In this document: piece by piece, positions 1,780 to 26,912 of the stretch | Numbering within the stretch: the first letter of the stretch is position 1 | Layout: every line of letters begins with the position of its first letter | Assembly: GCA_037176885.1 (NCBI GenBank) | Contig: JAWWNJ010000005.1 | Span: forward strand, 2,542,001-2,606,000 | Length of the DNA: 64,000 nt | Direction of reading: 5' to 3' | Source of the DNA: Favolaschia claudopus | Lineage: Eukaryota > Basidiomycota > Agaricomycetes > Agaricales > Mycenaceae | Made by a program: the position numbers and the translations under genes | Notes under the pieces: model-generated | What the model saw: the letters and a program-made list of their open reading frames with translations, nothing else | Told to the model about the DNA's origin: nothing | Databases searched by the model: none

Positions 1780-4605
1780 TCAAAAGCTACGAGAAGACCC
1801 AATCCTTCCCTGCTGCGGGCTTGACAATTTTCGAGATAATGTCTTCAAAGAGTTGAGCTTCACCGGAGCCGGTGCAGGAACAACACGATCCGTCGTAGCC
1901 ACCTGTCTCCAGAACGACTTGGGTTTTGTCTCTTCCCGTACATGATCTTCCGCTCGACGCATGTTCGCCCGCAACGAACGCAGCTCGCGTTCTAATGCCT
2001 TTATCCGCCGGCGCAAATTGTGAGCCTCCATGTCGTCCTCAGTTTGCATCCCAGCATCAACGAGAACCCGCTCAACGGGAGCCTCGAACTCAATGGCAAG
2101 GTCAGCCGTATCGGTTCCCCTTGATTGCTGGCAAGGCGCGGAGGGTCGTTGAACCCGTGCCCCTCGTCTCAATTTAATAACCGGCTTGTCCTCCGCAAAA
2201 GACGACTGTGAATTTAAAAGGAGTCGGTCGAACTGGGAGGATTGTGAACATTCCGTGACTTCGCTCGCGGGCGTTTCCGTTGCCCTGCTGATAGGCGAAA
2301 ACAAAGACGACACTTGGGTCAGCTCTTCCTCCAATGAGCTGGGAGATATTGGGATAGTCAAGCGAAGGAGAGAGGGGCGCAGGGGGTTCCTATGAGGCAA
2401 TTGCAAGCTATAGTCATAGTGCTCGCCTCCATCGGCTGTGGCTGTTGCATCCCCGAATCGTGGCTCTCGATCTCGCGATTGCAACGGCGCGCGTTCGTGA
2501 GATTGAGGTTGAACCTCATTACAATTGGACACCGTCGGCCCCGCATTGGCTCCAACCTCTACTGTTGGGTCTGTTGGGTCGAGCGAGGTGTCGGCATTTT
2601 TGCCGCAGGCCAACTCGAAATCGCACGCTCGCAGACGAGGTGGAGATCCAATGACAGTTACGGTTACAGTGGGTGAACTGGATACATCGTCGCGAGAATC
2701 AGAACCTTCTTCCACAGCCCCATTCTCAGCGCTGTCGGCGGACTGGGAATCCAGAGATCCTTTCCCAAGCTGAGGGTCGGTTCCTGGCTCAGTGGAGCTT
2801 CCGACCTGATTAACGGGGCCATGCACATATTCAGTCTCAGCTTCTTGAACGCCGTGTGAAGCAGGAAGAGGTCCGTCTTCTAATCGGATATTGTTATTTT
2901 TATCGGAGACCCTGAGACAAGATGTTTCTCCGGCATCCGTAGCTTCAGCTCGTGGTGCTGGCGGCGACGGTGGAATGGGCGAAAACCCTTCAAGAGGTTC
3001 GGTTTGAGTTGCTGTTTCTGAATCTTCTTCGGAGAGCTGTTCCGAGCTTCCCTCGTGCGTAAGATGGAGGAAGAAGTCGGACAGATTCGTACTGCCTTTG
3101 AAGAGCTCAGTTGGGCATGCACTGGTGTCATCGTCGAGTCGCGTGGTCATGGAGAATGGGGAAAACTGCAACAAGCTGCATCCCAGAAAGGGGGATCCAT
3201 TGCCCTGGTCTGGTGGCGGCGTGGAGGGAAGAGTAGGATTAGGAGGCGTGCTACATTGCGCACTATCACCGGGTGCGACTGCCCCCTGCTGCATTGGCGC
3301 AGCAGCAGCCAGTTGACTCGGAGATCCTGCGAGTTTGTCCGAGTCAGAAGCAGAAGGACTGGCGGATGCTTTTACAGTTGTGTGCGATGCGCATTCGTCG
3401 GGAGAAGAATCCAGTGACGAAGTGGTGTCGCAAGTCGGGGGTGACGGTGGTTTAGTTTCAGCTAACGGGCTAACGTCATTCTCATCTGCTGTATCGGCCA
3501 TGTCTCGGGGGAGGGGATTTGTCGCTGCCTGTACGGAGGCTCCGTTCACCGAGACATCCTTGGAGAGCTCCGACTCGATGTGGGCCTCTCCATCGGGTGG
3601 ATCGACGGTGTCTGACTCGGAGGGCGGATGGGAAGTATGTCGGCTGTCACGGTCTGAAGAGCTCTGCCTCTCAGATTCTCCGGTGTCGTGATTGCCAGTG
3701 CTGCGGCTGTTTTGGTCGTCACGGTTGTCTATCAACACTGAGCGCTAGATGTAAAAGTGGATGAATGGCATGGCTTACCGGTCTCTTGCCGCGAGAAGAC
3801 AGCTGCATTCTCTTGATCATCGACATCGACAGTGTCCTGTAGAGGCGGGTGCTGCGCTTGGTCTGAAAGGGGCTCTGGGTTGGAGTTCGAGTATTCATCA
3901 CCGCATTCTGTGGCGATTGGTGGACTCTCAGCAGAATCTACGATCGGAGGAGAATTATCCACCGGCGAAGATGGGGAGGTAACAGTACTTTGAGGACCCA
4001 GTTCAGAGTCATCGGACACGGGAGACTCTGCGTTGGAGGAGGTCGATGGAACCTCCGAATCGGCGCTGGCGAGGGGTAACGTATAAGGGAAGATATTGGC
4101 TTGGACGCGCAAAAGATATTCAGTCATTAAGCTATCATGGTTGGCCAGCCTCGAGCGCGAACTGTAAGTTCCTCGTCGTGAAACACGAAAACTTGAAAAC
4201 CTACCTCTGTAAAGACAAAGGATCAAGCTGCCGGAATGCAATTCCCGAGAGATTGAGCGCCCGCACATACTCCCCCGTTCGTGATGCTGAAGGGTGGGGT
4301 ATCCGACACACGACATCCGATAGACCCTCAGGAGTGAAATGAGATATCTGCCTCGGTTGTTACCTGACAGAAAGCATTGGATGGGTTTCGTTACAATACT
4401 TACTGACTGAAGTGCCGGTTCCCAAAAGGTATAGAAAACGTCTTCGTCTGAAACCCGCAGCGCATGAATGACCCTCTCCTCTAGAAAAGCCACGAGTCTC
4501 CTCACCTTGGGTTATGTCAGCATCAGCATTGAGCTCGTCGTCGGACTCGAGGTGGAGACTGCCCCCCGGAATGCGAAATCCATGGTACGGAGACTCGGAG
4601 GACAT
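1780..4605 (-). CDS. uncharacterised Ser/Pro-rich protein with C-terminal coiled coil, 875 aa
   Basis: Five exons: 4605-4506, 4447-4404, 4347-4205, 4161-3779, 3737-1780. They sum to 2,628 nt in frame with canonical sites. The N-terminal 200 residues look folded (DEDVFYTFWEPALQS, EYVRALNLSG, then TEYLLRVQANIFPYTL). The middle 600 residues are low-complexity Ser, Pro, Thr, Asp and Glu and are probably disordered. The last 100 residues hold a basic, leucine-rich coiled-coil stretch (RRRIKALERELRSLRANMR) and a basic tail ending in SSRSF. I do not recognise a family. The overall form, a short folded head, long disordered linker and dimerising tail, suggests a scaffold or regulator, but that is inference. 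ATG at 4605 is the first in frame in exon 1. Confidence 0.72.
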
Positions 4606-4984: not shown

Positions 4985-5194
4985 CTTCATCCCCGGCTGC
5001 CCCATACCGTGACTATCCAGCTTGTAATCTCCGCACGCTTCCTCCACTGTCCCCTTTGCGCTCGACGGTGAGGTTGAGCATGCGCGGCTCGAGCAGTCCA
5101 CCAAGCCGGCGTATCTTCCACGTCGAGAATAACCTGCGGATGTATGGCCTCAGCGTAAGAAATGGAAACGGGCAAAAAGAGAAGCAAAGAAAAG

Positions 5195-5269
5195 AGGTCA
5201 GATTTTCATAAATCTCGACATAAATGTTAAGACAGGGATAACTGAAAAATATAAAGGCTCATCCTGAAC
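5195..5269 (-). ncRNA. snR38: C/D snoRNA, snR38-like (25S Gm2815 guide), copy A
   Basis: Within intron 2 of host copy A. Plus-strand positions 5232-5244 read ACAGGGATAACTG, identical to a universal stretch of 25S/28S domain V, so the minus-strand RNA is antisense to it over 13 nt. A C-like box (AGGATGA, 5265-5259), a degenerate D' box CTTA directly after the guide, and a D box CTGA (5201-5198) are present. Counting five bases upstream of the D' box lands on the middle G of GGG, which is Gm2815 in yeast numbering, the snR38 target. The C box differs from consensus at one base and no strong terminal stem is seen. Confidence 0.66.
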
Positions 5270-5513
5270 GGCAGCTTGTGCTGGCCGAAGATAGATGGTA
5301 TTAGAAACAACACTCACCGTTGGAGATGCAGGTGCACAATTCGTCAGCGCCGCTCTCTGACAGCAGGACGACGAGAAAGCGGCGCATCCGCAAGCTAACG
5401 CTCCACCCACTACTTTTTATGTCGAGCGCGACAGTCGAAGAACACATAGAGAGTGATGAATCTGTTATAGAAAGAGTCAGCGTGAGTATAAGGCAGGAGA
5501 CGGGAAGTAAGTA

Positions 5514-5604
5514 AGAGATCAGAATATTTTAAAAAAAATACAGCCATGGAATTGTCGTCAGTGCCTTGCGGCTCAGGCGGTAATTCCGATGTTTCCTCAT
5601 AAAG
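5514..5604 (-). ncRNA. snR77: C/D snoRNA, snR77-like (18S Um578 guide), copy A
   Basis: Within intron 1 of host copy A. Plus-strand positions 5577-5587 read GCGGTAATTCC, the universal 530-loop sequence of 18S rRNA, so the minus-strand RNA is antisense over 11 nt. The guide is followed at once by a perfect CTGA box (5576-5573) and preceded by a C-like box ATGAGGA (5600-5594). A second CTGA lies at 5522-5519. The fifth base upstream of the first CTGA pairs with the U of GGUAA, which is Um578 in yeast numbering, the snR77 target. Confidence 0.68.
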
Positions 5605-5800
5605 AGGGACGAGGATAAAGAGAGTGAAAAACGCACCATTATCTCATTTCTGAGTCTGTATCTGCGCGAAGGCTGTCGTGTCGTGCGACGTGGGGAATTG
5701 GCGGTAGCAAAGAAGGTGACAGAGGAGCAATTCCGCAAAAGGACTAGTCGACAGCAACTTTCTAGTCCTTGGGCCTCCGCATCCGGGAGTGAGTTGTGGC

Positions 5801-7076
5801 CAAGTCATGGAGAGCATTTGGGAGTTGGAAATAACACGCGAAATGGGATGATCGCGGGCCTGATCGGTGGCATTTCCCACGACTGCCATCACCAGGCCGC
5901 AATACCGGAACAACTTCTTGGCTGCATAACATGTCCAAGCAACGCGTCGATGTGGTGTTTTTGACGCGTTCCAACGCGACTCACGGGCTGGATACTCGAC
6001 CCAAATTGAATTTGTATGACACAGACCTTAGCTACTATCTTCTATGTATCAATATCAAAGGATCTACGAGATATTAAGTGAGTGTCTTGTTGGGGAGAGA
6101 AGTCTTGAAGAATACATGTGCGCCGGTGAGAGCGCTAGCAGGGCATACACCCATTGATTTAAAGCCTGACCAACCTTTTGCGCGGGTATTGCCTACAGGA
6201 TACTTATATCAAGGAGATTGTCTCAGATTGATGGAGAGTCACCGTCCTGATCAAGGCTGCCGTGGCCGGCGCGCGCGATGACGACAAGCCTATAATGCAC
6301 ACAGTCTGTGACGGGCAAGCCCTGGGGCCAATTGCGCAAACGCACCGACGGGCGGGGAGAAACAGCAAGCACGAGCGCGCTGTGTATCTTTATTTTAATA
6401 TTTAGGTGACGGCATCAGCAATTGTTGGCCTGTTTGATGCCGATGGGATTGATGGCGGCCTGAATCATGTCATTTCCAACTGCCGAATTTTGTGAAGTCA
6501 TGGCGGAAGCCTGAAGGTGAAAAAAAAATCGGGGACTGATCAAGAACCGATCAACAATGCCGTGATATGCCGTAATGCCGACGAGCGCATCACGGTTAAT
6601 CCGAAGACACAACAACGCGTCCGACTCTGCCTGCCTCCACAACCCGAGCACGACAGCACCGATTCCGGAAATGTGTTAGCGGGGTCGAGGAGAGCAACTG
6701 TCTGTGCGGATATATATCTATATCTGCGCGCTGAGCGGTAGGCCCCGACAATTTCTGATATTCTACCTGTCCTCCGGGGACCGGCGCTCTTCAAGACTGA
6801 GCGAACTTGAAGACTCGGAACGTAGTACGTCCTCACCTTCATTGTACTTTATCTCATTTACTTACAATACATGAACAGTATACAGCTAAATTGCCAGGTA
6901 CATAAATATATTCGTTCTGCCCACTATCCACGGTTGAGCGAAAAGCTAATAAGTTATATTCAAGGTAGTGCTTGCACGCCGCCCATCGGACGGGACTCTG
7001 CGCACATCAGCGTACGACCTATCTCTCCCACAGGGTTGCCTCCTGCTGCGGGGGCCCGACCTACAACTTTAACAAA
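5801..7076. other. intergenic, 1.3 kb, nothing firmly recognised
   Basis: Short open frames on both strands (for example 5683-5964 on + and 6415-6651 on -) show no consistent splice sites or known motifs. The two share a weak match around GTTGGAAAT followed by an Ile/Ala-rich stretch, too little to call a gene. Sequence 6972-7076 is open in the frame of the next gene but lacks an ATG. Confidence 0.4.
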
Positions 7077-8161
7077 ATGCTCCTTCTTTACGTCGGGACT
7101 CCTCAGTCGCAGCGGCTTACGTCGATTTCCCTGTTGCACTGGATATACCCTTCAAGTTCCCGTTTTTACTCCGCTCCAAACTCAAGAGGCACAGCTGCCA
7201 TCAGTGGAATGTTCTACGTCTCCACCTTGAATCCAGCTGCCCTTGTTCCACAGGACAGAATTAATCTCTCAGATAAACAAGCATTCAGGGTCCGATTTCC
7301 TCATTCAATCGATAGGCCCTCTCATTCGCTAGTCGGTCGACGCTACAAACAAGATCGCCACCTTTACTACCTTCGTCAAACCGGTGGCCCGCACCTTTCT
7401 GTGTTCCCCCCAGGAAGTTCCGGGTTTTCGTACTTCTATCGGCCTCGTTACTCTATGCCATGTGAGGGAGGCCTTCGTTTTCGCCTGGCAGAGTCCCCCG
7501 AGGATTTCGAAAGCGCACAGGACCTGCTCTCTCCAAACGGTCTACCTTGGCAGATCAGCCTCCCTCAGATCAGCTGTCGGGAACACTACCACCTCCGCGA
7601 CCAACTGCTACTCGAATCCCTAGTCTCGAGATACCAAATATCCCGATGTCGCCACCTTTTCCGCGAGGTCAACCAAATCTTCTCCCACAACCTCATCTTT
7701 CGCCTCAATCAAGAGTTCTCGGTCAACTTCCGCGCACTCTCTCTTGTCGTCGTGGGCAGAGACAAAATTCACCGACTCGTCTTGCCCCATTTGTTTGATT
7801 GCCAGACGGACAACGTCAGGTGGTATCCTTGGGCAGGTAGGTTGGTCGACTCAGAGGTTTTTTACATACTTACATACATACTATTGTGAACGCAGGCTCC
7901 GCCATAGCCCGTTTCGAAAAATCTACAAACCCTCAGCATGAAGGAAGTCGAGTTGTCCATCTGCGTATTGTGCGCATAATCGAATCCGTTTCTCCCGCCT
8001 ACGAGGATCGGACCCCCAAAGCTGTTGTGAAGCCAGAAGCAGGACAGCTGTTATGTCGTGAGCACGGGGGGAAGATACAGCCCTGGGTGTGCGACATTGA
8101 TGCGAAACCTGATACCTCTATTGCGGTTGGCTTCCAGATGCTTTGGGATCTCGACAAATAG
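7077..8161 (+). CDS. uncharacterised agaricomycete-family protein, two exons
   Basis: Exon 1 runs 7077-7836 and exon 2 7896-8161, joined by a canonical 59-nt intron; the join gives WYPWAGSAIARFEKST. From memory, agaricomycetes carry many hypothetical proteins with similar blocks: an Arg/Phe-rich start (LRFRLAES), a central LLSPNGLPWQI and a GSAIARFEKST-like motif followed by VVHLRIVRII. No signal peptide, membrane segment or catalytic motif stands out, and I know no function for the family. The start is uncertain: ATG 7077 is the first in frame, but ATG 7209 would begin closer to the part that looks conserved. It lies inside the inverted duplication described at 4985 and 12541. Confidence 0.7.
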
Positions 8162-8536
8162 TTCATAATGGATTTCATATTTATCAAGACCTACGATGTT
8201 CTCACATACATTCCCTCGGCCTGACATGTGTATCCAATACACGAGAATATAGACTCAAGTTACGCACAAACTCGAGTCTCAAGATTGGTGTATTCTATTT
8301 CATGGAGCGGCGCAGGATGAAGGTTCCTTTGTTCGCCGTTCTTTCCACAATGGCAGTAGAAATCAAGAAACGATGTAAGTATAAGAATGAATCTCAATTC
8401 TTCGTCATCCTAATGCGCCGAGCATGATATCAAACGATATACGATTCTAAGGTCAACCGACCCAAACCTGGACTAAGTATACGGACAAAAGATAGTAGTA
8501 GATATAGTTATATAAACGAGAGTACTCCTTGTTAAA
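8162..8536. other. intergenic between two 3' ends
   Basis: Convergent 3' regions of the uncharacterised gene and the PL8 lyase. AT-rich in part; no gene or RNA recognised. Confidence 0.5.
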
Positions 8537-11500
8537 TCAAGGCAACTTGACACTAACACTGGCCCCTACAGTGCCACCCGTCGGAAGAGCAACAGTAACA
8601 GGCCGGCTTTTGACGGAGCCCCACCCAGGCGGGGCCGTCCCAGACAAAAGCGTAAAGTTGAGCGCAAGCCCCGTAAGACTCTGCGTCGGATCCGACACCG
8701 TAACCTCCCAGGTGTCCATCCGCAATATGATTATCGAGTTCCCATTCGCCTTGACCTGAATCGCGCCGACGCCGGCCTTCAACGACGGAACCGTGAACGT
8801 CGAACCCGCGGCGGTCCAGAAGGCGATGAACGCCGTGTTGTGTGCGGTATCGAGAAGGCACGAAATCGACCCGTCGTTGCGCACGACGTGCAAGTTGTTG
8901 GGCTCCGCAGCTGCCTTCTTCGCGAACCCAGCCTGTGTCGTGCCGGGGTACATCGCGTAGGACGTGGGCGCGGAGATGTCCTTGTGAGATAGGAAGGCAG
9001 TGAACAAATCGACGGTGTTGGCCGCCGCCTTGGAGCTGCCGATATTCTGCCAATTCCCAGTCTTCTCCCCCACCTGAACCGACAACGAGATAGCCGGATC
9101 GGAAGCGTTGAAGGTGTACCCCGTACCCCCGTGCCAGAGGGTGCTGACGTTGGTGTAATTCCCCGAACCTTTTGTGGCGCCGTTGACAAAGACGTCTCCG
9201 GAATGTGCACGCTGATCCAAGACGGTGTACACTGGGGCGGAAGTCGACGACGAGATGAGCGCGATCATGACGAACACGATATCGTCCTCGAGGAAGAAGT
9301 AGGTCTTGCGCCAGGTCAGGGCACGAGTTGCGGGGTTATCGTAGCGCATGGCGGCGATGCCGACAACTCCGTCGGATACCCCACCGACGTACGGTTGAAT
9401 TCCTGGTTTAGATGTGGATTCGCAATTGAGAGGTGTAGCGCCGTAATCCACCGTGGTGCCAGGGATTAGATTCCAATCCCATGCGGAAAATATGTCCTGG
9501 TACTGAAAAAAAGAATCAGTCAGATGGTTTGATGAGACTGGTTGGTCAAATGTCTACCTCGTTGCCTATGAGGCATCGAACATGAGTAGATAATATGCAG
9601 AAGGGAAGGAAGTCATACCAGTATTATACGTATACATCGCTCCATCCGACAAGTGGAACCCAAGCTTATTTTGCGAATTCACACACTCCGCATTCAACGT
9701 CCGCTTGCCAAACATCTTCAGCGTAACCATATAATTTTGCCCACGGTGAACCTACACCGGTCGTCATTAGCCATGACTCAACATCCTCCCTCAACCGTAC
9801 CGTGTCACTCACCATATAATCATTCGCATAGAACATCCGATTCCCCACAATGGAACCAGTGTTGACAGTGGATCCATTACCAGCCAACCCGTTGTACACT
9901 TCCGTGATATCGTCCGAGTCCCAGAGTTGCCCCAGCTCTTGAATTTGCGTCAAGTTGATCTGAAGAGTCGCTGCAGAGCTTCGGAAATGTCAGTCCAGAA
10001 CCGAATTTCTAAAGAAATATGTAGAGACGAACGGACTTTTTGTCGGTAGTCGGCTGAGCAATGTTCCGCCCGATCACAGTCTACAAGGTTCAAGTAAACG
10101 GACTAGTTCGTTCGGAAACAAAACGGGAAAACGGCAAACGCACATAATCCCAGTGAGGAATGTTCGTGATTATGTTCCGGAAAATCATCCACGCATCCTA
10201 CAACAGATAAGTAGGTAATCAGTACGTTGACAAGGAAAAACATGGGCGAGTGAATTATTGATCCACACGCTCACCGCTTTCAACAAGGACGTAAAAACGC
10301 TCTTCGCGTCGTCGCCTGCTTGGAACTGCGTCCCGCCGGAACAAATCTCGAGGTTGAGGACGTCATTGACGCTGAAAATTTGAGGGTATCATCAGCGTCC
10401 GTAATATGCAGCCCAGAAAAACATGAAATTCCGACACGTACTAGTCTTTTCCGTAGGCACTGTGATCATCATGATTCAGCCAATTTCAACGCAGTTCTGA
10501 CGATGTGAATTTTCACTGACCCATTGTACAACAGCCCGACATGTTGCCCAAACGAACCATCCGGACGGATCCCATCCGCCTTTGGCTGAGTCTGATATAC
10601 AAAGTCGCTATGAACGACATCGTATCCCTCCTTAACGAGAGAAGAGTTGCCCTGGAGAAGTCCCAGATCGATGCCGACGGAGGCAATATCGAGGAGATTC
10701 GCGCCGGTGATGCCAGAGGTCATGTTTTGGATGCCGGTTTGCAGGGTGTTGTATGCTCGGCTGGTCATTCGGGTGCAACCTTCGAGTTCGGATGCGGTGA
10801 GGGTGTCTCCGAGCGAGAGGCAGACTTGGCCGACCCAGCTGGGGATGAGGATGATCTGCCATTATAAGTCATTCTTAGTGCGAAAGCTTGAGAAGATGAA
10901 TTGAGGTTTTAATCGTACGTTGGAGAACCAGTTTGTATTCCTAATCAAAAAGAAGTTAGCATAGGAAGACACGACGTTGATTGGAGGTGAATATTATATA
11001 TTCACCATAAACCTGGCGTGCCGCAAGGACAAACGGCCGTCCCATTTCCGTCGAGACACGCAGGATTCTTGAAATCGTTGTCGAACCAGAAACCCATCGC
11101 AGTCGAGATTGAAGCTCGAAGGTCAGGATTCCCAGTCCAGTTCAACGCGCCCTTGAAGCCGCCGTGCCATGCAGAAGCGAAAGTGTCTTGTAAGACGCAA
11201 AGTTTGAAAAAATATTGGAAGAAAATGACGGAAAAGATTTACTTGTGCGAACCCAATGCTGTTGAGCGGGCCAGCTACTGCGACTTCCGTCGCAGCCTGC
11301 GGCATAATTCACATCGGCCCAAGTACCGTCTTCTCGCTGGGTAGAAAGCCTGAGATTTTACGGTCAATACCACATTGGCAACAGACTCGTTTCGAAAATA
11401 AGATGACGAGTGAAACGCACCATAAAGCAATATTTGCCGCGCCGGTCGAAGAGCCGACGATATTAGAAAGTCTGCGTTCGCGGACAGTGTCGAGTTCTGA

Positions 11501-11581
11501 ATCCGACCGTTGCAACTTGGAATCGACGAGAAGCGCGCTGAGTGCCACGACACATGGCACCAAGAAGGCGGCGCGGAACAT
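8537..11581 (-). CDS. polysaccharide lyase family 8 (hyaluronate/chondroitin/xanthan lyase-like), secreted, 763 aa
   Basis: PL8 enzymes cleave uronic-acid polysaccharides by beta-elimination. Thirteen exons: 11581-11421, 11349-11243, 11186-11006, 10940-10919, 10855-10521, 10459-10442, 10371-10275, 10197-10144, 10080-10037, 9978-9813, 9751-9619, 9565-9558, 9502-8537. They sum to 2,292 nt in frame. The N-terminus is a signal peptide (MFRAAFLVPCVVALSALLV). The alpha-toroid follows with REDGTWADVNYAAGC, then the active-site block DGSFGQHVG...NGAYG: candidate catalytic His at about 262 and Tyr at about 271. The central beta-sandwich starts near WDWNLIPGTTVDYG. Exons of 18 and 8 nt are needed to keep the frame; the 18-nt exon carries the catalytic Tyr. 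A TATAAAA lies about 110 bp upstream of the ATG. The family call is secure; substrate cannot be told from sequence. Confidence 0.93.
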
Positions 11582-12540
11582 CGTCGGAAAGACAGTAACA
11601 GGTCGTTGACCAGCTGGATGAGAAAGAAGAAGTTGAAACCAAAGGAAAGTATTTTGTGAGGTTGATTGAACTGCGCTCACCTTTTATACATGTGAGATTG
11701 TCGCGAAATGATGCCGCGAGAAGATGATCTTCGTGACGGTCCCTAGCTACCTGCCTACCGAGCCTTTGATGGGTTCGTTTTCCGGCGTGTTGAAACTTTC
11801 GGCTAATCGGAGGAGACAATTGAGTTGAGTCAATACATATTTTGAGCGAGAGTCTACGCGCCTTCACACACATACGTTCCCACCTAACGTCCCCGCCTGT
11901 CCCCGCCCCGGGCGGGACTTGATAGCCGACGTTGTCGGACGGCGGGCGCGCATCGTACGCCGTGCCAAGACTTGATCATGAGGCTCTCGGCTCCTGCTTG
12001 TGCTCTCTAAGTATGTACAGTACCTGTAAAGGTGAGCTCAGGACAGATTGCCTTGTATAACCGACCTCCATTTTTCTTGCCTGGCGTGCCAATCAGACTG
12101 GTATCGAAGTGCATTCAGTGAATCAACTCAAACGGGTCATGGCATAGAAAAAAGATATCCATCTCGAACATGAGGAAAACAGCTGAACTGACAAGTACGC
12201 TGACTCGCATCTCTTCACAGCAGTACTATTCTCGAACCTCGCCAAGCCTCAGACCTGAGCGTCAAAGGAGGGGAATCTATTGAATGACTCACTGGAACTC
12301 TCCCAGGAACGGGCATACGGGGTATTTTCAATACCACTCGTCGTATATGTGGTTCGAGTCACCTTGCATTGACTCTTGAGGCTTGTTTTGACTTCAAGCT
12401 TCGAGTTTGAACATTGGGGGAATGGGGAAGGGGGCATTCGAGTCGGAGTTTATCTGTGATCGGCGTACGACATTACGGCATTCCTTTAAGTTCCGATCAG
12501 TGCCAACAAAATCGCAAACAACGAAAACTTTTTTCCGCCA
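11582..12540. other. intergenic, divergent upstream regions
   Basis: Holds the upstream sequences of the PL8 gene (-) and the snoRNA host copy B (+). A GC-rich patch with a CCCGCC...GGGCGGG inverted repeat lies near 11895-11920. No gene recognised. Confidence 0.5.
11692..11698 (-). promoter_or_regulatory. TATA box of the PL8 gene
   Basis: TATAAAA on the minus strand, about 110 bp before the ATG at 11581. Confidence 0.55.
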
Positions 12541-12737
12541 CCACTCAACTCGCGGATGTGGAGGCCCAACGACGAGAAAGCCACGGCTTTCGTCGACTAG
12601 CCCTGATAGACTTTGCTCCTCCTTCGCCTTCTACCCCTTCTTAATGCCAACCCTCCACTAGCCTCGACGGTCCAGGTCGCACAGAAGGACTGAGATCATG
12701 GTGCGTTTTTCGACCCTTCATTGCTCGTTCTTCTTCT

Positions 12738-12826
12738 ATGTATGACGAAACATCGGAATTACCGCCTGAGCCGCAAGGCACTGACGACAATTCCATGGCT
12801 GTATTTTTTCAAAATATTCTGATCTC
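12738..12826 (+). ncRNA. snR77: C/D snoRNA, snR77-like (18S Um578 guide), copy B
   Basis: C-like box ATGACGA at 12742-12748, guide GGAATTACCGC at 12755-12765 directly followed by CTGA at 12766-12769, and a distal CTGA at 12819-12822. The 11-nt guide is the exact reverse complement of the 18S 530-loop sequence GCGGTAATTCC; the fifth base upstream of the first CTGA pairs with U578 (yeast numbering). About 85 nt here differ from copy A at only a few positions while flanking exons are diverged. A further CTGA at 12781-12784 could be part of a C'-like element. Confidence 0.7.
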
Positions 12827-13047
12827 TTGCTTGCTTCTTGTCCTTCCTGGCCTGTTCTCATGCTGACTCTTTCTGTAACAGGTTCATCGCTCTCTTTGCG
12901 CTCTTCAACTGTCGCTCTGGATATAAGGAAGTCGCTCGCGGAGCATTAGCTTGCGGGTGACGCCGTCTGTTGGAGGAGAGAGCGGCGCAGACGACGGTGA
13001 GTATTGTGTCCATTATCCTCTTTTCACAGCCAGCGCAAGCTTCCGGC

Positions 13048-13123
13048 GTTCAGGATGAGCCTTTATATTTTTCAGTTATCCCTGTCTTAACATTTATGTC
13101 GAGATTCATGAAAATCTGACCTC
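13048..13123 (+). ncRNA. snR38: C/D snoRNA, snR38-like (25S Gm2815 guide), copy B
   Basis: C-like box AGGATGA at 13052-13058, guide CAGTTATCCCTGT at 13073-13085, D' box CTTA at 13086-13089, C'-like ATGTCGA at 13096-13102 and D box CTGA at 13116-13119. The guide is the exact reverse complement of 25S ACAGGGATAACTG in the peptidyl-transferase region; the five-base rule from CTTA points to the middle G of GGG (yeast Gm2815). The block matches copy A with about two differences over 84 nt. Weak points are the one-mismatch C box, the degenerate D' box and no clear terminal stem. Confidence 0.68.
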
Positions 13124-13215
13124 TTTTCTTGCTTCGTCCATCCATGTCCATTACTTACGCTGATACCATACTCTCCAGATTATCTTCGACGTGGAAGATC
13201 TGTCGGCTCGCTGAG

Positions 13216-13565
13216 ACTCTTGCAGGGTTCTGCTGGCTTGTCAGTCTTCCTCCTCCTCTGCCCAATGCCCGCAGTCGCTGACGATGTTTTTCTCGTCTCA
13301 CAGACGTCGCGACTCTTATGTATGACAGAGAGGCCGTACCGCATGTTTATATAGTTCGTTCCACGTACGAACCGTACTAACAGTGTGCGTCCATACATCC
13401 CTCGGGCGCAAAGGTCCTGCCATGTTTTTTGTAGTTGCCTTGATAAGGAAATAAAAAAAGCGTTCTCGCTTTTTGCGCAAATCATCAAGACGCGATGCCG
13501 GTGCCCCGCCAAACTGCTCTTCCACCCCCGTCATCCCTACCTGAGCCTCTGTCTACATCCACTCC
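13216..13565 (+). other. region between snoRNA host and next gene
   Basis: Possibly further host exon or 5' leader of the next gene. Contains a TACTAACAG at 13376-13384 resembling a branch point plus acceptor, and a short A7-GCG/CGC-T5 hairpin near 13455-13477. This part is deleted from copy A. Confidence 0.35.
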
Positions 13566-14296
13566 ATGGACAACACAGCCACACTCTGCGACATCCTCTG
13601 CGCCGAAGAAGCATGGCACTGGGACACCTATGACGGCCACAAACTCATCTTTCACCGCGACGGCACCGGGGTGGTACGAGTGTCGCTTCCCCCAACGTTT
13701 CATCTTATGTATGATACTTGCCGTGCCTGGTCAACTAGATAACCTCACACGCCGAGCTCAACATCTGGATCTACGCCATTTTCGAATGGAAAGTCCACGA
13801 CCCCGCGAACAGCGTACACCATACCCCCCACCCGCACCCTACACCACCGCGTCCGTGTGCATTGGGATCAATCATGCGAAAGCTGCTGACGATATTCCGC
13901 CGCCCGACCCCGCCCGAATTACGTGCCTCCATAGAATTCACACTCACCGAACGCCGCCCCAACGTCCCCTCCCATCCTTCGTTTTCATTGAGCAAAGAGA
14001 ACCTCAACGAGTACTTCCTCCTCCCCATCGCCTTCGAGCCGCGCATCCTCCACCTCACTGTCGAGCGCAACGGGTGCTTTCCCGCTGGATTTGGGAGCGT
14101 GCCACAGAGGAGGAGTCGGTTTCGGTCAAGGCTGACGTTCGATGTTTCCCCTTATCCGGCGAGGCAGGCGTGGAGGGAGCATTGTCTCAAGATGGTGGAT
14201 AGTATGGGGCAGCCGGGGATGAGGCGGTTTTGTGCGGGGAAGCTTGCTAGCCAAGGAGGTCATTGCGGATGGCTGCCCGCCGGATGCAACTCGTAG
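13566..14296 (+). CDS. uncharacterised small protein, two exons
   Basis: Exon 1 13566-13673 starts at MDNTATLCDILCAEEAW; exon 2 13739-14296 follows a 65-nt intron, phase 0, giving ...HRDGTGV|ITSHAELNIWIY. The product is about 221 aa with a Trp/Asp-rich N-terminus, a His/Pro-rich loop, then IEFTLTERRPNVP, LLPIAFEPRILHLTVERN and LTFDVSPYPARQAW. The IEFTLTE, LHLTVERNG and LTFDVSPYP blocks read like beta strands, but I do not recognise a family. A truncated, stop-containing relic of its 3' part lies in the inverted copy near 4985-5090, so this gene was part of the duplicated unit. Further 5' exons are possible because the snoRNA host lies just upstream on the same strand. Confidence 0.6.
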
Positions 14297-14484
14297 GCTC
14301 TTAGGTGCAGATTTTAGTTATGGGCCTTGATTGAGTGCTACACCTACTTACCCTGGGCCTACTGCTTATATGCGCTTCCCAGTCAACTAGTAGCTACGCG
14401 TTCTATTTGTGTTCTATTTTTCCATTCACCGATTCACCGTGTCTTACTTCACGTGATACCGCATTGGCACTCAAGTAAGTACTC

Positions 14485-15483
14485 ATGTCGAACCAAGACG
14501 TTCTTCACGCTGCGGCACTCGGCGCCCTCGCCTTTCAATCCCATAGATCCAACAACCCGTTCTTCAAGCTCAACGCACCTGCGCATCCCGGTCTTACAGG
14601 CGCACCTGCGCACCCTGGCGCCGCTGGCATCTTCCCCGGTATGATCACTAAGGAGAGTCAGCAACCGCTCAGTCCTTGCCCGTTTTCGCCTTCTTTCGAG
14701 CCTACTCCGGTCCAACCCACGGCGGCCCACAACGCGATTCCTCTTCCGAGTCTTCAAGTTCCCATAACCCAATACATCCCGCAGGAGCAGCAGTGCCACC
14801 ATACATCCGAGTCGGAGCTCGTATCCTGGCAGCCGTCACCCCACTCGCACCATCACTTCCCTTGGTTCACTGCCCCTCCTCCTCATCCTCATCCCACTCC
14901 TTGGTGGGCACCGCAACCTCAGACTCACCTTGCGCCTCCGCCGGTATACCAAGCCTCACCGCCGCAACAGCTTTTCTCTCACCCAGTACCTGCGATTCAA
15001 TTTCAATCGTCCGCTTCCTCCTACGCCGTCCCTGCGCACAGCACCACTCACAATGCGGCGGCCGCCAGGGAGGCTCCGCAGCCCCGCCATACACACGCTG
15101 GAACCCGCCTCCGTCAAATCCGAGCCATGCTCGAGGTCTTCAATACGCATTACGGCTCCGACACGTCGACTTGGGCGAAGACGTCTTCACGCATCACGGA
15201 GCTCGCCACCATCATCTATGCTAACCGCCCACCGGACCTCGACACCTTCATCGTCTGCTGTATGCTCAACGCGCTGTCCGCCTCACACCCGGCGTTCGTC
15301 GACGGCCTTCTCAACAACTCCGATCTCACTTCGCGCTTCATTGAGGAGCGGCTGAGCCTCAAGGCCGATCTCATGGCCATCGCAGCCTTGACGCGCACGC
15401 CTAACCCACCGCGTCGTCGGCAAGAGCGAAGGAGGTGTGCGGCACGCCGAACTGCAAGCAAGAACCCTTCGTCCCATGCCTAG
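14485..15483 (+). CDS. Pro/His-rich single-exon ORF with a helical C-terminal domain, 332 aa
   Basis: Uninterrupted frame from ATG 14485. The first 210 residues are rich in Pro, His, Gln and Ser and look disordered. From about 215 the sequence becomes helical and polar (RLRQIRAMLEVFNTHYG, ITELATIIYANRPPD, CCMLNALSASHPAFVDGLL, FIEERLSLKADLMAIAAL), then ends in an Arg-rich basic tail. A disordered head, a small all-helical domain and a basic tail resemble retroelement Gag proteins, but no zinc knuckle, protease or reverse transcriptase is nearby, so this is only a resemblance. It may equally be a host gene or a remnant. Confidence 0.5.
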   Translation: MSNQDVLHAAALGALAFQSHRSNNPFFKLNAPAHPGLTGAPAHPGAAGIFPGMITKESQQPLSPCPFSPSFEPTPVQPTAAHNAIPLPSLQVPITQYIPQEQQCHHTSESELVSWQPSPHSHHHFPWFTAPPPHPHPTPWWAPQPQTHLAPPPVYQASPPQQLFSHPVPAIQFQSSASSYAVPAHSTTHNAAAAREAPQPRHTHAGTRLRQIRAMLEVFNTHYGSDTSTWAKTSSRITELATIIYANRPPDLDTFIVCCMLNALSASHPAFVDGLLNNSDLTSRFIEERLSLKADLMAIAALTRTPNPPRRRQERRRCAARRTASKNPSSHA

Positions 15484-15722
15484 GCTGCGCACCATAGACG
15501 CTTAGAAACTCATCTTCACTCATTTACCCATCTCTCTCAACTCTTCGATGTCTCCGCGACGCGCGCTCTGCCACTGTGCCAGTCCTCAACGTCGCGTATA
15601 TTACATTCGTCTAATTACTTTCAAGATTGATAGCCTATACAACACCTTTACGCATTACTGTACAGAAGAATACATGGCGCATCGCCGCATCTGTCCACGG
15701 ACACCAGTCAAGAAGTCGTTAG

Positions 15723-17808
15723 TCACTGACTCGAGCGGGAAATGGGAATAGGGTCAGAGTACGGAATGGCAAAAGGTTCACTAGTAATGAATTGTTTTCG
15801 AATATCATTGAACGGCCGGCGAGCGATATAGGACGGGGATATTCGATGGCTGGAATCAAAAAAGTCAGTATGGATCACGATGTATTCTTTGGCAAGACGA
15901 AAAGCAACAACGAACCGCCTGAAATACTTTGTGATGCAAGCCTCCAATGCTTGCTCCGCCTCCGGCTTCAACATCAGCTGTCGTTTTCGCTGCTCTTGAA
16001 GTTTAGCTCTAACGTCTCGCATGACCGCATCCTCGATAGAGCACCGCGAGTTAATCCTCATTTGCGTAAATGCCTCCTGGAAGGCTTTGATCGAGCCTGT
16101 CTTGACCTGAATTCCCCTCAACTATATATGACGATTAATGATATCAAAACTTGGCAAAAGGCACGACAGGCTGCTGTTACGCACGGAAACCTTATGTTTC
16201 ACGGCCAGAACCTTCAAATCTTTGAATTTGACTCGGTTCAATGAATCCAAGTTTGCTTCATCGGAGAATAGGACGCCACGTTCGGTAAAAACGCGCAAGA
16301 CGTCCGTATAGTGGTCCACGACGTTGAACCTGCCATCCGAATTCATTTTCTCGAGTTTTGAATACGAGACTATGGTTTCTCGCTCAAGGACAAGACCAGC
16401 TAAGACATGACGTGCTGCGACTGTGAAAGGACGGGTGAGTAGCGCCGGGGTATATGACCGTAAGACTCACCATTCAACGCCCTGCAGGCGGCAATGACCG
16501 CCGCACTGGGTTCCGGAAGTTCTTGGCCGGTGCCTACACTGTCCAGGACATCTACACAAATATTAACACAGGGAAAAACAACCTCCAAGCTTCGAGAGTT
16601 CTTCACCATCGAATATCAGTAAGTAATTGTCGACTCTGGTTGGCCTCAACTTCTGCGGCGTTGGAAAGTTGACGAGTTCGAATTTCACCAGTGTCTCGTA
16701 ATCGTGCGTGAAAGGTTCATAACGCATGCGATATCTGGACGCTCCGAAATGTTTCCAGAGGCCTTCTTTCACCTCGAAGTTGGCAATGGCGTGATCATCA
16801 GATCCTGGGACAAGAGGGGGAGGGAGGGGATTCCTGGGTCGAAACCTTAGCATACAGAACGATTGAGGAGAGTGAAGAACTTGCAAATGATAGTATACCA
16901 GTATGAGGCGGCGGAGAAGACGCACAATATCCATCTTGATCCTGATGCAACTCTCTTCATGTATCATATATATTTAGGTCTGTGGCAAGATTTCGATGAA
17001 GACGTACCGAGTGTGTCGTATACCAACTGGTACAAACGAGGATCGTTCTTCAGTCTTGTAACCAGCTCTCTCTAAGCGAACATGCAAATTAATATGGAAC
17101 TGCAATAAACACGCTGAGCGGCGGCACCTTCGGTCTCTGTTTGGGCTCTCCCATAATTACTTGCAGCTGCGGCACAATGAGACACTCGAGAGCATCGTCG
17201 ATCTGAATCTGACTTTCAGCGAAACGCGAATCCTGAAGCGCGATCGTCAGTGATCCAGTTGTTCAAGACGGAATGAAGAATCTGACCTCGCAAAGCTCGC
17301 TCATGACAGCTTTTAGTCTCTCCTGGTCTAACTCGAGGCGCCCAGCAAGCTTCTTCATTCGGCGAACTGGATGCCATTTCATGCTTTTGCGCAACCACAA
17401 ACAGATCAGAAGTCTCTGTGCGTCCTCTGTGTCCACGTTCAGGATATTCAGTCTAAGTGTTGCTGATGCCCCACATCACAGTCGGACGCACCGCTAAAAT
17501 CTTTCCCAAAATCCTCCAGTAAACGTGCGTCTTCCGGAGGTATGAGCGACGCTTGGTTTGATCGTACGAAACCGATGATTTCTAGGTAAAGGGTGTGTCA
17601 GGTTGGTGTCAGGAAAGTCTGGCGAGTACAGGAACTAAATCCACTCGCAATACTACTCACCTCGAATGAATCCAAGATAGCGCTTGGAATGCGTGAGATG
17701 CGAGTCCGATTTCTCTTGCTCTTCATCGTCATCTTCCTCTTCGTTGCTGTGTTCTCGTTCTACCAGAGTCGATGAACTGGACGCGGGAAATGTGAGCTGG
17801 GATGACAT
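15723..17808 (-). CDS. uncharacterised protein, ten exons, 537 aa
   Basis: Exons: 17808-17661, 17581-17492, 17462-17287, 17232-17113, 17071-17008, 16941-16899, 16845-16583, 16551-16471, 16420-16191, 16121-15723. They sum to 1,614 nt in frame. An acidic N-terminus (SNEEEDDDEEQEKS) is followed by a helical region (FVRSNQASLIPPEDARLL, LICLWLRKSMKWHPVRRMKK), a mixed domain around EGLWKHFGASRYRMRYEPF, and a basic helical end (DVRAKLQEQRKRQLML). No motif I can name. The donor AAG|GTTTCC before the last exon is weak, but it avoids an early stop at 16122 and keeps the frame; if unused, the protein ends there. Confidence 0.66.
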
Positions 17809-18229
17809 CCTAGGCTTTCTCGGTGAGGCGGAAGTAAACTGCGAGAAGCTGTGGAATTGTAGTCGGCGTAGTCGATTGGGGTAGTAAGTATTGGCTCGTG
17901 ACAGCTGCTATTTATTCAAGAGCAGGGCACTGCATGTCAAGGCCATGTAAGGACCACTGGCAACTGGCAGTTGAGTGAAGTCGACAGAGAAAGCAGAAGA
18001 AGAAGACAGATAGCAGTGCTGACAGGCTCCTAATGACACCACCCAATTTGGCCTGTGATTCATCTCAGGTATGTACTACTCAGGCCAAACTCAGGCTGTC
18101 TCGAAACCGTGCCATATCCACTATAAGATAGCCATACCATGTATACGTATACAATCCCCATCTCTACAAATAACTCGATACCATAAGCAAATAAAGAAAA
18201 AAGAACAGAAAACTTCCATGGATCCACAT
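17809..18229. other. intergenic, nothing recognised
   Basis: Upstream of the ten-exon gene and downstream of the MINDY gene, both on the minus strand. No gene seen. Confidence 0.5.
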
Positions 18230-19647
18230 CTACATGATAACACAATTCTTACTTTTCTTATTCTTGCGACGCTCCTCCGCCTCCTCCTGCGCCCGCTGTT
18301 TTTGCCGCTGGCGCTCGCGGTTTGCATCGCGGAGCATCTGCGCGTGGTTGTCCTCCTCAGCTTGCATCTGCTGGGCCAGGAAATGACTTTGCGGCAGGTC
18401 AGTATATGCGTGCGTGGAGGGAAGAGCAAGAGAAAGACGCACTCTGCCGGATCGTGAGGAATAAACAGACCCGCCTCGTACTCCGCCGCGCGGAGAGCGT
18501 CCTCGGCCGTCTGGCCGGCGTAATCGCCGCCCGCGGGACTGGACCGCACGAAATTCGAGTCGACCCAGGTGGAGTTGCCGCCGTCGACGTCTTCCATGCG
18601 TTCCCATACAACGGAGCCTTCGTGGAGGAAGACTGCGTCGGTGACGAGGGAGTAGAGGGACGAGTCGGTGGGGGAGGTGGATTTGTGGAGGACGGAGAGG
18701 TGGGAGTTGCGGAAGAGGGCGACGAGGGCGCCCCGGGGGAGGGTGGTGGCGAGGTGGAAGAGGCCGTGGTATGTGAGCTGCGATTGGGTGGTATCGAGGA
18801 ACTGGCGGATGGCCATAGCTAGTTGCTACGCGTCAAGATTCGATAGAACGAGTATAGCCAGGAAGCGTACCATCCTCTATCTTCGCACGCTCCTCCGCAG
18901 TGTAAGACGGTGCTGCAGCACTGCTGCTTGACCCCGCAACAGGCTCGCTCGACTCGTCCACTACGAGCTGGCCCTTGGCAGTGTGATCCGCGTCGACAAT
19001 GCAAGTAACCGCCGTATCGTAGTCTTGTGCCCGTTTTACAATGGCTTCAGCTTCAGGGCTCTCAGGGTCGACGAGCCAGCCATGAACCAATTCAATCCCG
19101 GCTTGCTCAAATAGTTTCAGTGCCCCTCCGTCCCCGGCTGGCCTGAACGATGTCGCGCCGGTGAAGAGCGGATTGAGGTCCATGCCCTCTGTGAGACAGC
19201 ACGCTGGATGAGAAACATCGACGCAAGAAGAATAGACACGTACTCTGCGTCAACGGCATTATAGATAGAGCAGCCGAAATGTCGATATCCCGCTGTCGAG
19301 TCAAGAGGTACTCCCCCAGCAACTGCGACAAAAATTCATACGAAACAGAGTCTCGGTCCGGAGGCAAGATTCGGATGTCTCCACGCAATATCAGGATGTT
19401 ACCTACTGAGAGTCAGCCCATTTCGCAATAAAGACCAACCAGACGAGGCTACATATTGCAATGAATGAGCAAGGACTATGTAAGAAAATGAGTGGTTGGC
19501 GGTCAGGATGTAACTCGCTTACCCTTACCCGTTAAAGTTCTGTGTGATGATTTTGAGCTCTTGTTTCGTGTCGGTAAATCCAAAGCTGATTCTCTTGAGA
19601 TACCATACTTCCGCTTCAGAGGTGTGCAGGCTGGGGTCGTCGACCAT
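18230..19647 (-). CDS. MINDY-family deubiquitinase with C-terminal CAAX box, 383 aa
   Basis: MINDY cysteine proteases trim Lys48-linked ubiquitin chains. Exons: 19647-19529, 19475-19453, 19402-19244, 19188-18871, 18818-18443, 18386-18230; sum 1,152 nt in frame. Seen: IITQNFNGPCSFIAICNILI with the catalytic Cys at about 42, VSYEFLSQLLGEYLLT, GMDLNPLFTGATSFRP, ELVHGWLVDPE, FLDTTQSQLTYHGLFHL, FRNSHLSVLHK with the candidate catalytic His, VFLHEGSVVWERMEDVDGG and FVRSSPAGGDYAGQT. The tail is a long Gln/Glu/Arg helix, as in ubiquitin-interacting motifs, ending KNKKSKNCVIM: a polybasic stretch and a classic CAAX box, so farnesylation and membrane anchoring are likely. The catalytic Cys sits on a 23-nt exon. 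Yeast relatives are also predicted to be prenylated, to my knowledge. Confidence 0.94.
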
Positions 19648-20556
19648 GGAAGTGAGAGACAAGCGCAGTCGTGACAAGACTTTGATATGTATGAGCGTAA
19701 GCGCAATTACACGATAATTGATGGTCCAAGCAAACTCTAGCGCTACAATTCCTAAGCGTGGCGATGAAAAAAACATGGATTATACGGAAGTACAATGCGA
19801 ATTACGGGAATGGATCTAGGGTAGGGGACGGATTTAGTGAGAACAGTACAGCACGGCGAAACTGTCAACGATCACCAAGGTATAAGGTATGGGGAAGCCA
19901 CCATCGAGTCCTTGGAGGATGGCATAACGTATTTATTGGCGCAGGTATCGTTTGTACTTCAATGCGGGGCCAATGGCTGATGTGAATTTTGCGGCAGTGG
20001 GAGCGCATTGAGCAGTCTTGCGATTAGATTCAGAGTCACCAAATTGTTTTCTCAAACTGCAGCCAGCCTGGATATAAAGAGGTTACTTATTGGTCTCTCA
20101 TAACAGCACAGGGATAGGTGTGAAGGTCGAACCGTAGCGAAGCCCAAGTCCCCGTGTTGCGATTCGGTGTTTCCGGAATTATTTCTCAACGTACATGCCC
20201 CGGCGAGAACATCCGTCTAGACAGGCGGCGGAAAATTTCCGTCCACGACCATTATATGTATCGCGGACGTTTGCTGGTCCCGACGGATTGACTCCGTTTC
20301 CTACCTGCCGAGCGAGGGAAATACCCACTCTATTCTGCGACCAAAAAAATTCTTCAAACCCGAAGATGTGAACTTGGCGGCCGGTGCCGAGTAGCAAATC
20401 TCGTTCGGCGGTCTGATCCTAAAATAGCTCAGGCGGTATAAAAGCCCGTCTAAAGGGAATGTGGAGGGTCAGTCCCACTCGTTGGCACAACATCTACTCT
20501 CTCCTCTATCTTACATTCTTTTCCACCCACCCACGTTCTTTTCTCTGTTAACAAAA
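19648..20556. other. intergenic between divergent genes
   Basis: Upstream sequences of the MINDY gene (-) and the barrel protein gene (+). A TATA box serves the latter; no other gene recognised. Confidence 0.5.
20437..20443 (+). promoter_or_regulatory. TATA box of the small secreted barrel protein
   Basis: TATAAAA, 114 bp before the ATG at 20557, followed by a pyrimidine-rich leader (CTCTCTCCTCTATC) typical of highly expressed fungal genes. Confidence 0.6.
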
Positions 20557-21005
20557 ATGCATTTCGTCAAGTCGACTGCTGCTGTTGCTGTTTTTGTCGC
20601 GACTGTTGTTGCGACCAAGGGCAAAGGTGGGCTGACAGTTCTATTTTTCAGGAATATGGTCCATTGAATGCTTTCAGCGACGTACTTTGAGCCCAACAAT
20701 GGGTACGGCGCATGTGGACAGCGCATCCAAAATTCGGACCACAAAGTCGCGTTGTCGTCTGCGCAATATGGAAACGGTGAACATTGCGGAAAGACGTTCA
20801 CGGTCGAACGTATGTTTTTCCAGCTGTACGATCTCTTCCATTCAACGTCTTGACTTCTGGTGCAGACAACGGTGAGGGTATTGTCGTGGAGGTCGCGGAC
20901 CTCTGCCCAGGATGCGATTCCAACCAAATCGACTTGACTTCTGGGGCGTTCAAGGTTCTTGCGCCTCTCGACGACGGTGTCGTGTCCGTCAATTATTATC
21001 TTTGA
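20557..21005 (+). CDS. small secreted RlpA-like double-psi-beta-barrel (expansin/barwin-like) protein, 113 aa
   Basis: Exons 20557-20626, 20678-20809, 20866-21005; 342 nt in frame. A signal peptide (MHFVKSTAAVAVFVATVVA) precedes a single barrel domain: TYFEPNNGYGACGQ, ALSSAQYGNGEHCGKTF, EVADLCPGCDSNQIDLTSGAF. Four Cys, paired as in barwin/RlpA folds. The length fits fungal one-domain members, which lack the expansin carbohydrate-binding module. These proteins are secreted and thought to act on walls or hosts; enzymatic activity is doubtful. The conserved Asp of the HxD-type site is present in VADLC and QIDL. Confidence 0.9.
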
Positions 21006-21900
21006 ACACGCAAAGCAAAAAAAAAGTAGTTGGGTATTTGGATTGTTGGTTCGCGTTCTGAGATTGTTGTTTTGATTAGAATAATACACCCACACATTCG
21101 TTTAATGCTTCAAAACAGACTTGCAGGGGCTCGGAGTATTGTTTCTTGTAGGGAAACTCGTCCATTCGAAGCGGTTGGAGTTTTGGACTGCCAAGTCAGA
21201 GTCCCGTTACTGTCAGACCGTGGTATGTTTTCATCGAGGACCTTTGAATATGCACTGCACGTCCTCATATGCATCCGAGAGTTGTAAAGAGCAGCAGTGA
21301 GTCTCTCGGGCCTTCTACGCGACACTACTAGAAACTTTGTGAATTGTGATCATAATTCTTTGTGATTTACATGTAATTTGACTTGGAGTTTTCTACTGCC
21401 AGAGAGATTGCTAGGATTTCTTCGAACAGCCAGAGCGCTTGATTCTTCGAGTATGAGTGGCCGCACGAAAACAACGAGGTAAGCCCAAGGTAAGTCTCGA
21501 GCAACATGAAGGTTAAGGTTAAGGTTTAGATCGAGGGTCGTGTTTGGCTGGACCTTGATTAAAGTCCTCCTCGCTTGGCCCACCCCTTCGCAGAATCGCA
21601 AGTCTTTCGCTAGAAGCCAGTGAATTCCGTCGCTTCGCAGGCTTCGACTGGGGCTCACTTGGCTCTTCACTCCTACCCAACACACACCTGCTGAAAAACT
21701 CATCACAATTGGTCAAAAATCCTTGTGAGACTGTGACACGACTGCTGTAGAGCGATCTGGTCTTGCGTCGAGGTCTAGGCGACGTTCCCTACGCGTACCA
21801 TCGCAAGCACGGCCGAGGTTCTGTACTGGAGTGACGTGGACTTCAAAAACTGCGGCGCATAACGTGTCCAAAGTATCTAAATTACTTGCATAAAACCGCC
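21006..21900. other. intergenic, nothing recognised
   Basis: Holds the 3' flank of the barrel gene and the upstream region of the TPR gene. A short run of three GTTAAG hexamers at about 21508-21528 is not the TTAGGG telomere repeat. Confidence 0.5.
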
Positions 21901-24021: not shown

Positions 24022-24424
24022 ACCTTAGATTGACGACAAAGCTTTTATAATTTTTATTGGGGGAAATGAGGGACGATGGACGAGCGGGCAGAAAGACGCG
24101 GATGCGGCTGCGATTCTTTCTTGTGATGTGGGGTACGGTTGTACCGCTATGCTCGTTGTACTAACAGACATATGGATATTCGCTCCCTGCTCCTGCTATA
24201 TGCATGTGGGTCTGGGACTTAATACGGCTCATAGATTGCTGCGCGCGAAGTTTCTCACCGATTTGAGTGGTATAGCACGAACCCGTGACGCGCTAACTTT
24301 CAGAGCTTGGGAATTATCCAGCCTAGAAGAAGGACGTTTATCATTCAAGTGTTGCTCGCACCCGTTCTTCTTATCTACGGTAACGTTTACTTTCTCAGGC
24401 GTTCGGAACTCTCTCTTGGACTTC
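24022..24424. other. intergenic, nothing recognised
   Basis: Upstream of the formamidase gene. No gene or clear TATA box seen. Confidence 0.45.
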
Positions 24425-26815: not shown

Positions 26816-26912
26816 TGATGATACATTGTCAGAACCCCTTCCCCATGCAAGATGATGTACAACTAGGTGTAACAATAAATGTCCCCAGTAAATGATACGA
26901 TAATGCCCAACC

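Follow-up and report, generated by a model that had tools for sequence, protein, structure and literature searches.

An inverted pair of putative non-coding host genes for snR77-like and snR38-like box C/D snoRNAs in Favolaschia claudopus

We analyzed a 64,000-nucleotide stretch of the Favolaschia claudopus genome (assembly GCA_037176885.1, contig JAWWNJ010000005.1, positions 2,542,001 to 2,606,000; hereafter, the window), in which two inverted arms, at about 5099-5790 on the minus strand and 12548-13215 on the plus strand, are organized alike. In the direction of the host, each arm comprises exon 1, intron 1 containing a unit that resembles the box C/D small nucleolar RNA (snoRNA) snR77, exon 2, intron 2 containing a unit that resembles snR38, and exon 3. 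Judging from their sequences, the arms are very probably duplicated, non-coding snoRNA host genes similar to UHG and gas5, which supports the reading given in the original prediction. Neither guide is unique in the genome, and the window guides are additional copies.

The two arms are 74.5% identical over 733 columns (blastn), and two short inverted pairs stand out within them: 5187-5270/13047-13130 (84 nucleotides [nt], 99% identical) and 5528-5606/12736-12814 (79 nt, 94% identical). Weaker inverted pairs (72-90%) form a chain in which 5052-5790 is matched to 12548-14074, and a perfect 21-nt inverted pair lies at 4987-5007/14202-14222. These pairs, together with an alignment of five host copies described below, bear out the proposed exon-intron structure common to both arms, and the predicted block coordinates, guide strings, and adjacent boxes agree to a base. 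The intron 1 unit (81 nt in the plus arm, 82 nt in the minus arm) contains, in order, ATGA(C/G)GA, the guide GGAATTACCGC followed by CTGA, TGACGA, and CTGA, whereas the 68-nt intron 2 unit contains AGGATGA, the guide CAGTTATCCCTGT followed by CTTA, and CTGA. The features are as follows.

12548-13215, plus strand: host unit of the plus arm; ends approximate, with the start near the limit of arm homology and the end within exon 3 (from inverted repeats and the five-copy alignment)
12701-12881, plus strand: plus-arm intron 1, 181 nt, GTGCGT...GCTGAC...TAACAG
12742-12822, plus strand: plus-arm snR77-like box C/D snoRNA, 81 nt; Rfam Afu_300, 22.5 bits, cutoff 40
12742-12748, 12755-12765, 12766-12769, 12782-12787, and 12819-12822, plus strand: in the same unit, box C (ATGACGA), guide, box D' (CTGA), box C' (TGACGA), and box D (CTGA), respectively
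12882-12996, plus strand: plus-arm exon 2, 115 nt, with stops in all three frames
12997-13178, plus strand: plus-arm intron 2, 182 nt, GTGAGT...CGCTGAT...CTCCAG
13052-13119, plus strand: plus-arm snR38-like box C/D snoRNA, 68 nt; Rfam snoR38, 34.1 bits, cutoff 45
13052-13058, 13073-13085, 13086-13089, and 13116-13119, plus strand: in the same unit, box C (AGGATGA), guide, box D' (CTTA), and box D (CTGA), respectively
5099-5790, minus strand: host unit of the minus arm; ends approximate (from inverted repeats and the five-copy alignment)
5462-5636, minus strand: minus-arm intron 1, 175 nt, coordinates derived from element spacings
5519-5600, minus strand: minus-arm snR77-like snoRNA, 82 nt, box C ATGAGGA; Rfam Afu_300, 24.8 bits, below cutoff
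5318-5461, minus strand: minus-arm exon 2, 144 nt
5134-5317, minus strand: minus-arm intron 2, 184 nt, splice dinucleotides checked on the sequence
5198-5265, minus strand: minus-arm snR38-like snoRNA, 68 nt; Rfam snoR38, 35.7 bits, cutoff 45
14034-14074, plus strand: stretch past the plus-arm host, whose fragment at 5052-5092 (minus strand) adjoins the minus-arm host (from inverted repeats and the five-copy alignment)

The assembly containing the window comprises 264.6 Mb in 460 contigs, and the counts from our DNA searches of it are lower bounds. At least 11 matches were obtained, consisting of five full hosts, three places with snR77 only, and three with snR38 only. Of the full hosts, C5 has two (the window arms), C48 has another two, inverted relative to each other, and C175 has one; the predicted pair of hosts is real in the window, but five hosts were found in the assembly rather than two. 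Two 18-place guide strings, GGAATTACCGCNNNAGCC and CAGTTATCCCTGTCTTAA, each have eight exact matches in the assembly, all at host or paralogue loci. The snR38 string has no additional one-mismatch match in the assembly, and its reversed control has no match. The snR77 string has 11 additional one-mismatch matches elsewhere and, because its total of 19 equals that of the reversed control (19), is by itself not beyond chance; its eight exact places were recognized by longer homology. We also considered a transposon-like family and rejected it, as the search gave only five hosts (a lower bound), in three collinear loci. A search of IMG/VR contigs for relatives with the two guide strings returned no match for either.

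The strongest contrast is between the snoRNAs and everything around them. When the window arms are compared, 3 of 150 snoRNA positions differ, versus 124 of 454 other positions (Fisher p = 4e-14), in keeping with the earlier claim that the intronic blocks are conserved while the exons have drifted and acquired stops. Across the five aligned hosts, 78 of 83 columns of the snR77-like unit and 65 of 68 columns of the snR38-like unit are invariant. Averaged over pairs (ungapped), the two snoRNAs are 97.3% and 97.9% identical, compared with 70-82% for other regions, including 76-82% for the flanks inside the very introns that bear the snoRNAs. In all 10 host pairs, snoRNA columns are 96.7-98.7% identical (ungapped) versus 72.3-80.9% for the remainder, and the contrast is significant in each of the six pairs tested (p from 4e-9 to 4e-14), namely the within-locus pairs and those between corresponding arms. 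Selection on the snoRNAs appears well supported by these comparisons. Near-identity of the blocks between arms might instead reflect local gene conversion, and some exchange between arms is suggested by a tree of the flanks, since it unites the two C48 hosts (support, 93). Conversion as the sole cause is nevertheless very improbable: in each pair it would need to stop close to where the snoRNAs begin and end, and much of the snoRNA sequence is also kept in the unlinked paralogues described below.

The exons appear to be non-coding. They rank among the least conserved parts of the host copies; exon 2 ranges over 111-144 nt across the five copies, with a length that is not kept modulo 3, and stops interrupt two or more of its frames in all five copies and all three frames in three. 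No open reading frame (ORF) is conserved: the longest ATG-initiated ORFs in the predicted spliced stretches span 16, 78, 14, 34, and 53 codons and are mutually unrelated. The 78-codon ORF, in the minus arm, could be taken as a sign of a small encoded protein, with the intronic snoRNAs as passengers. We rejected a protein-coding host on comparing ORFs across the five copies, as the other four offer only unrelated readings of 14, 16, 34, and 53 codons and exon 2 does not maintain a frame; this explanation is extremely improbable.

Splicing signals and guide elements recur throughout the five hosts. Each of the 10 introns has a splice donor, a branch site, and an acceptor and contains one snoRNA; the donors are GTGCGT in one position and GTGAGT or GTGAGC in the other, and all 10 branch sites read GCTGA. 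Every host snoRNA (10/10) has box D CTGA near its 3' end and a guide directly upstream of CTGA or CTTA. The distance from box D to the branch adenosine is 40-57 nt in all 10 introns, and the distance from the 5' splice site to box C is 36-42 nt in intron 1 and 52-55 nt in intron 2. In Neurospora, the latter distance is mainly 41-60 nt (PMC2780460).

Other copies of each guide reside in hosts of two different kinds. The three snR38-only copies (C104, C5:1564655, and C57; loci L015, L016, and L017, at about 2416-2542) were assigned through L016, the one of the three loci tested, where the surrounding exons carry the Pfam domains GST_N, GST_C, and EF1G; the remaining two loci align with L016. Judged by these domains and alignments, the host of the extra snR38 is an eEF1B-gamma gene with the guide in an intron. 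The yeast gene TEF4 likewise bears snR38 in its intron (PMC2705663). The snoR38 scores of these copies are 45.5 (above the cutoff of 45), 40.9, and 40.8 bits. The three snR77-only copies (C4, C12, and C22) belong to a series of conserved blocks, and several of these blocks are C/D-like. An Rfam scan of 1351 bases of one such locus, L014, with E up to 10, listed nine matches, five of which fit in order; all fall below the gathering thresholds.

Unit 1: DdR4-type, guide TCATAGTTAC, E 0.83
Unit 2: snR78, 25.8 bits, E 0.24
Unit 3: Afu_300 (snR77-type), 22.9 bits, E 0.1
Units 4 and 5: SNORD35 twice, 21.0 and 19.7 bits, E 0.09 and 0.23

We take the DdR4-type unit to be snR76-like, from the ribosomal RNA (rRNA) sequence, and the SNORD35 matches presumably correspond to the snR73 site. 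Scans of L012 and L013 over their full length, with E up to 1, listed no matches. The probable cluster-type host occupies L014:1934-3183, likewise in L012 and L013, and includes an additional conserved block at 3081-3183. The published order of fungal cluster I is snR78-77-76-75-74-73-72 (PMC3596301). The extra-snR77 locus is probably a cluster of this snR72-78 type; its identity as cluster I is probable but unproven, because the set resembles the fungal cluster while all scores are sub-threshold. The two forms of snR77 differ in their boxes: window-type copies have box D' CTGA (5/5) and box C ATGACGA or ATGAGGA, and cluster copies have box D' CCAA (3/3) and box C ATGATGA.

Several observations weigh against the host-gene reading of the window arms. 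Rfam at gathering thresholds gave no match in the window. The snoR38 (RF00213) and Afu_300 (RF01509) models did match at both arms, but with 35.7 and 34.1 bits against a cutoff of 45 and with 24.8 and 22.5 bits against a cutoff of 40 (9.6 kb searched). Box C departs from RTGATGA by at least one mismatch in every host snoRNA; it is non-canonical in 5/5 window-type snR77 copies (ATGACGA in four, ATGAGGA in one). An external stem around window-type snR77 is not above shuffles in any of the five copies (p 0.17-0.91), and that of window-type snR38 is weak, with p 0.03-0.08 in three copies and 0.35-0.44 in two. The flank tree does not group the copies by arm. Finally, C175 carries only the minus host, and the second host is dispensable in this version of the locus.

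Other details help to place these observations. With E up to 0.5, a scan of the whole window listed just three matches, two to snoR38 and an unrelated one to a microRNA; Rfam aligned the window guides to snoR38, Afu_328, and Afu_300, all sub-threshold, and SNORD49 overlaps the snR77-like unit more weakly than Afu_300 does (17.5 bits in the window and 16.3 bits in L014). Box C of the snR38-like unit is AGGATGA in four hosts and CGGATGA in one, and AGGATGA is also found in 3/3 eEF1B-gamma copies. The cluster snR77 copies do not have an external stem above shuffles either (3/3, p 0.91-0.99), whereas the eEF1B-gamma snR38 copies have a strong one (3/3, p at most 0.024). Some known intronic C/D snoRNAs have no terminal or external stem.

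One could argue from the imperfect box C and missing external stem of window-type snR77, from the existence of three paralogues of each guide, and from the absence of the plus host in C175 that the window copies are decaying or silent duplicates, with the working guides in eEF1B-gamma and the cluster. The original prediction had itself raised the case of bona fide guides elsewhere with these copies silent; copies elsewhere were found, and against silence it is conservation alone that argues. The snoRNAs average 97-98% identity versus 76-82% for flanks in the same introns, and box D' is intact in 5/5 window-type snR77 copies versus CCAA in 3/3 cluster copies. We therefore regard silent duplicates as improbable. 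Non-coding host genes remain very probable because the counterpoints leave unexplained why the snoRNAs alone are nearly constant.

The history of the locus can be partly reconstructed from its copies. The host locus occurs in three collinear versions (C5, C48, and C175). Outside the hosts, identity in their longer blocks is about 83-93%, and it rises to as much as 97% further along C175. The cluster loci also occur three times (87-91% identical, with one 97% stretch), as do the eEF1B-gamma loci (85-88% identical, with side blocks at 73-76%). Because each of the three loci examined exists in three collinear versions, the assembly may contain three haplotypes or subgenomes. The two C48 hosts resemble the window layout, being an inverted pair that looks allelic to it, and since C5 and C48 share this pair, the host duplication is probably older than their split. 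In C175 (205000-249500), collinearity ends at window position 12610, about 5.5 kb does not match the window, and collinearity resumes at 29296; that version lacks the 16.7-kb window stretch 12611-29295 and, with it, the plus-arm snoRNAs. Fragments of sequence from downstream of the plus host (14034-14074 and 14202-14222) are found beside the minus host, which indicates a duplication extending past the host itself. Between the arms, a gene at 8540-9451 (minus strand) has polysaccharide lyase family 8 domains. Farther along, at 47797-49180 and 60567-61935 (minus strand), are two closely similar genes, read as ORF translations, that we presume to be protein-kinase-like.

On this evidence, the two guides of the window gene probably came from two older hosts, which would make it a derived host, and an inverted segmental duplication would then have doubled it; its derived status would follow from the eEF1B-gamma host shared with yeast and from the resemblance to the cluster. 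In the mechanism that we propose, an RNA polymerase II transcript of each arm would be spliced, with the exons as waste, and debranching and trimming would turn each released intron into one box C/D snoRNA. The snoRNA would lie upstream of the branch point at a rather steady spacing, which suggests splicing-coupled particle assembly that would offset the missing terminal stem. A Fusarium strain without the debranching enzyme has reduced levels of intronic snoRNAs, including SnR38 (PMC9606315). The window gene would act as a secondary supply, as the cluster snR77 and the eEF1B-gamma snR38 both persist.

We predicted the targets with the five-base rule for box C/D methylation sites. The rule puts the target of the GGAATTACCGC guide at the U of GCGGU (18S rRNA) and that of the CAGTTATCCCTGT guide at the second G of ACAGGG (25S rRNA). 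In yeast numbering, these sites would be Um578 in the 18S decoding center for the snR77-like RNA and Gm2815 in the 25S peptidyl-transferase center for the snR38-like RNA. That these are the yeast targets of snR77 and snR38, as the original prediction asserted, is confirmed in print (PMC5199042, PMC8307265), although the snR38 site is printed as Gm2812 in PMC3511168; a yeast table places them in the 18S A-site decoding center and the 25S peptidyl-transferase center (PMC8307265). The D' guides of the Neurospora snR77 and snR38 homologues are directed at 18S-Um575 and 26S-Gm2773 (PMC2780460). The proposed targets thus depend on guide sequence and on these published sites. Because an 18S 19-mer has no exact match in the assembly, 18S may be absent from it, possibly unassembled; the two rRNA strings had no match in IMG/VR.

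The differing boxes raise a further, rather unlikely scenario, in which the snR77 paralogues share labor through complementary box decay and Um578, with part of Gm2815, depends on the new host. The cluster snR77 combines a canonical box C with a ruined D' and might therefore be produced well yet guide Um578 poorly, and the window-type snR77 combines a perfect D' with a weakened box C; alternatively, the box differences could be tolerated drift. If labor were divided in this way, haplotype-variable copy number of the host would tune two functional-center methylations together and apart from others. More generally, the host seems built around two guides of which other copies remain in two unrelated hosts elsewhere in the assembly, so that a single genome offers a view of snoRNA mobility and of what follows from it. 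Both guides aim at functional centers of the ribosome, and paralogue-specific bases make the supplier host of each methylation distinguishable.

In the literature examined, which did not include the main fungal snoRNA survey, no host combining snR77 and snR38 is described, and the main text of a Pleurotus survey (PMC5040776) contains no occurrence of snoR38, snR77, or Afu_300. The closest parallels are the non-coding hosts of Neurospora crassa, clusters I-V, which have C/D snoRNAs in introns and short ORFs only and have been likened to UHG and gas5 (PMC2780460). There, CD23 (the snR38 homologue, on chromosome V) and CD24 (the snR77 homologue, on chromosome VI) lie apart, whereas here both guides share one host, found five times. 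This genome also keeps the snR38 arrangement of yeast TEF4/eEF1B-gamma, at C5:1564655, C57, and C104; unlike in that arrangement, the window snR38 lies in an apparently non-coding gene and does not have a strong external stem. The snR77 family is shared with fungal cluster I, which the locus on C4, C12, and C22 recalls through its matches of the snR78, snR77, and snR73 types (two of the last), all of them sub-threshold. Introns of snR73, snR74, snR76, and snR77 are reported missing from some Basidiomycota (PMC3596301); this genome has snR77, and a second host for it as well. Like mobile snoRNAs under "constrained drift" (PMC3511168) and snoRNA introns that are excised and inserted (PMC3596301), the window guides would occupy new intronic hosts. 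Unlike the mobile snoRNAs described in those sources, however, two guides from two hosts would here have met in one, while the other sites keep their copies.

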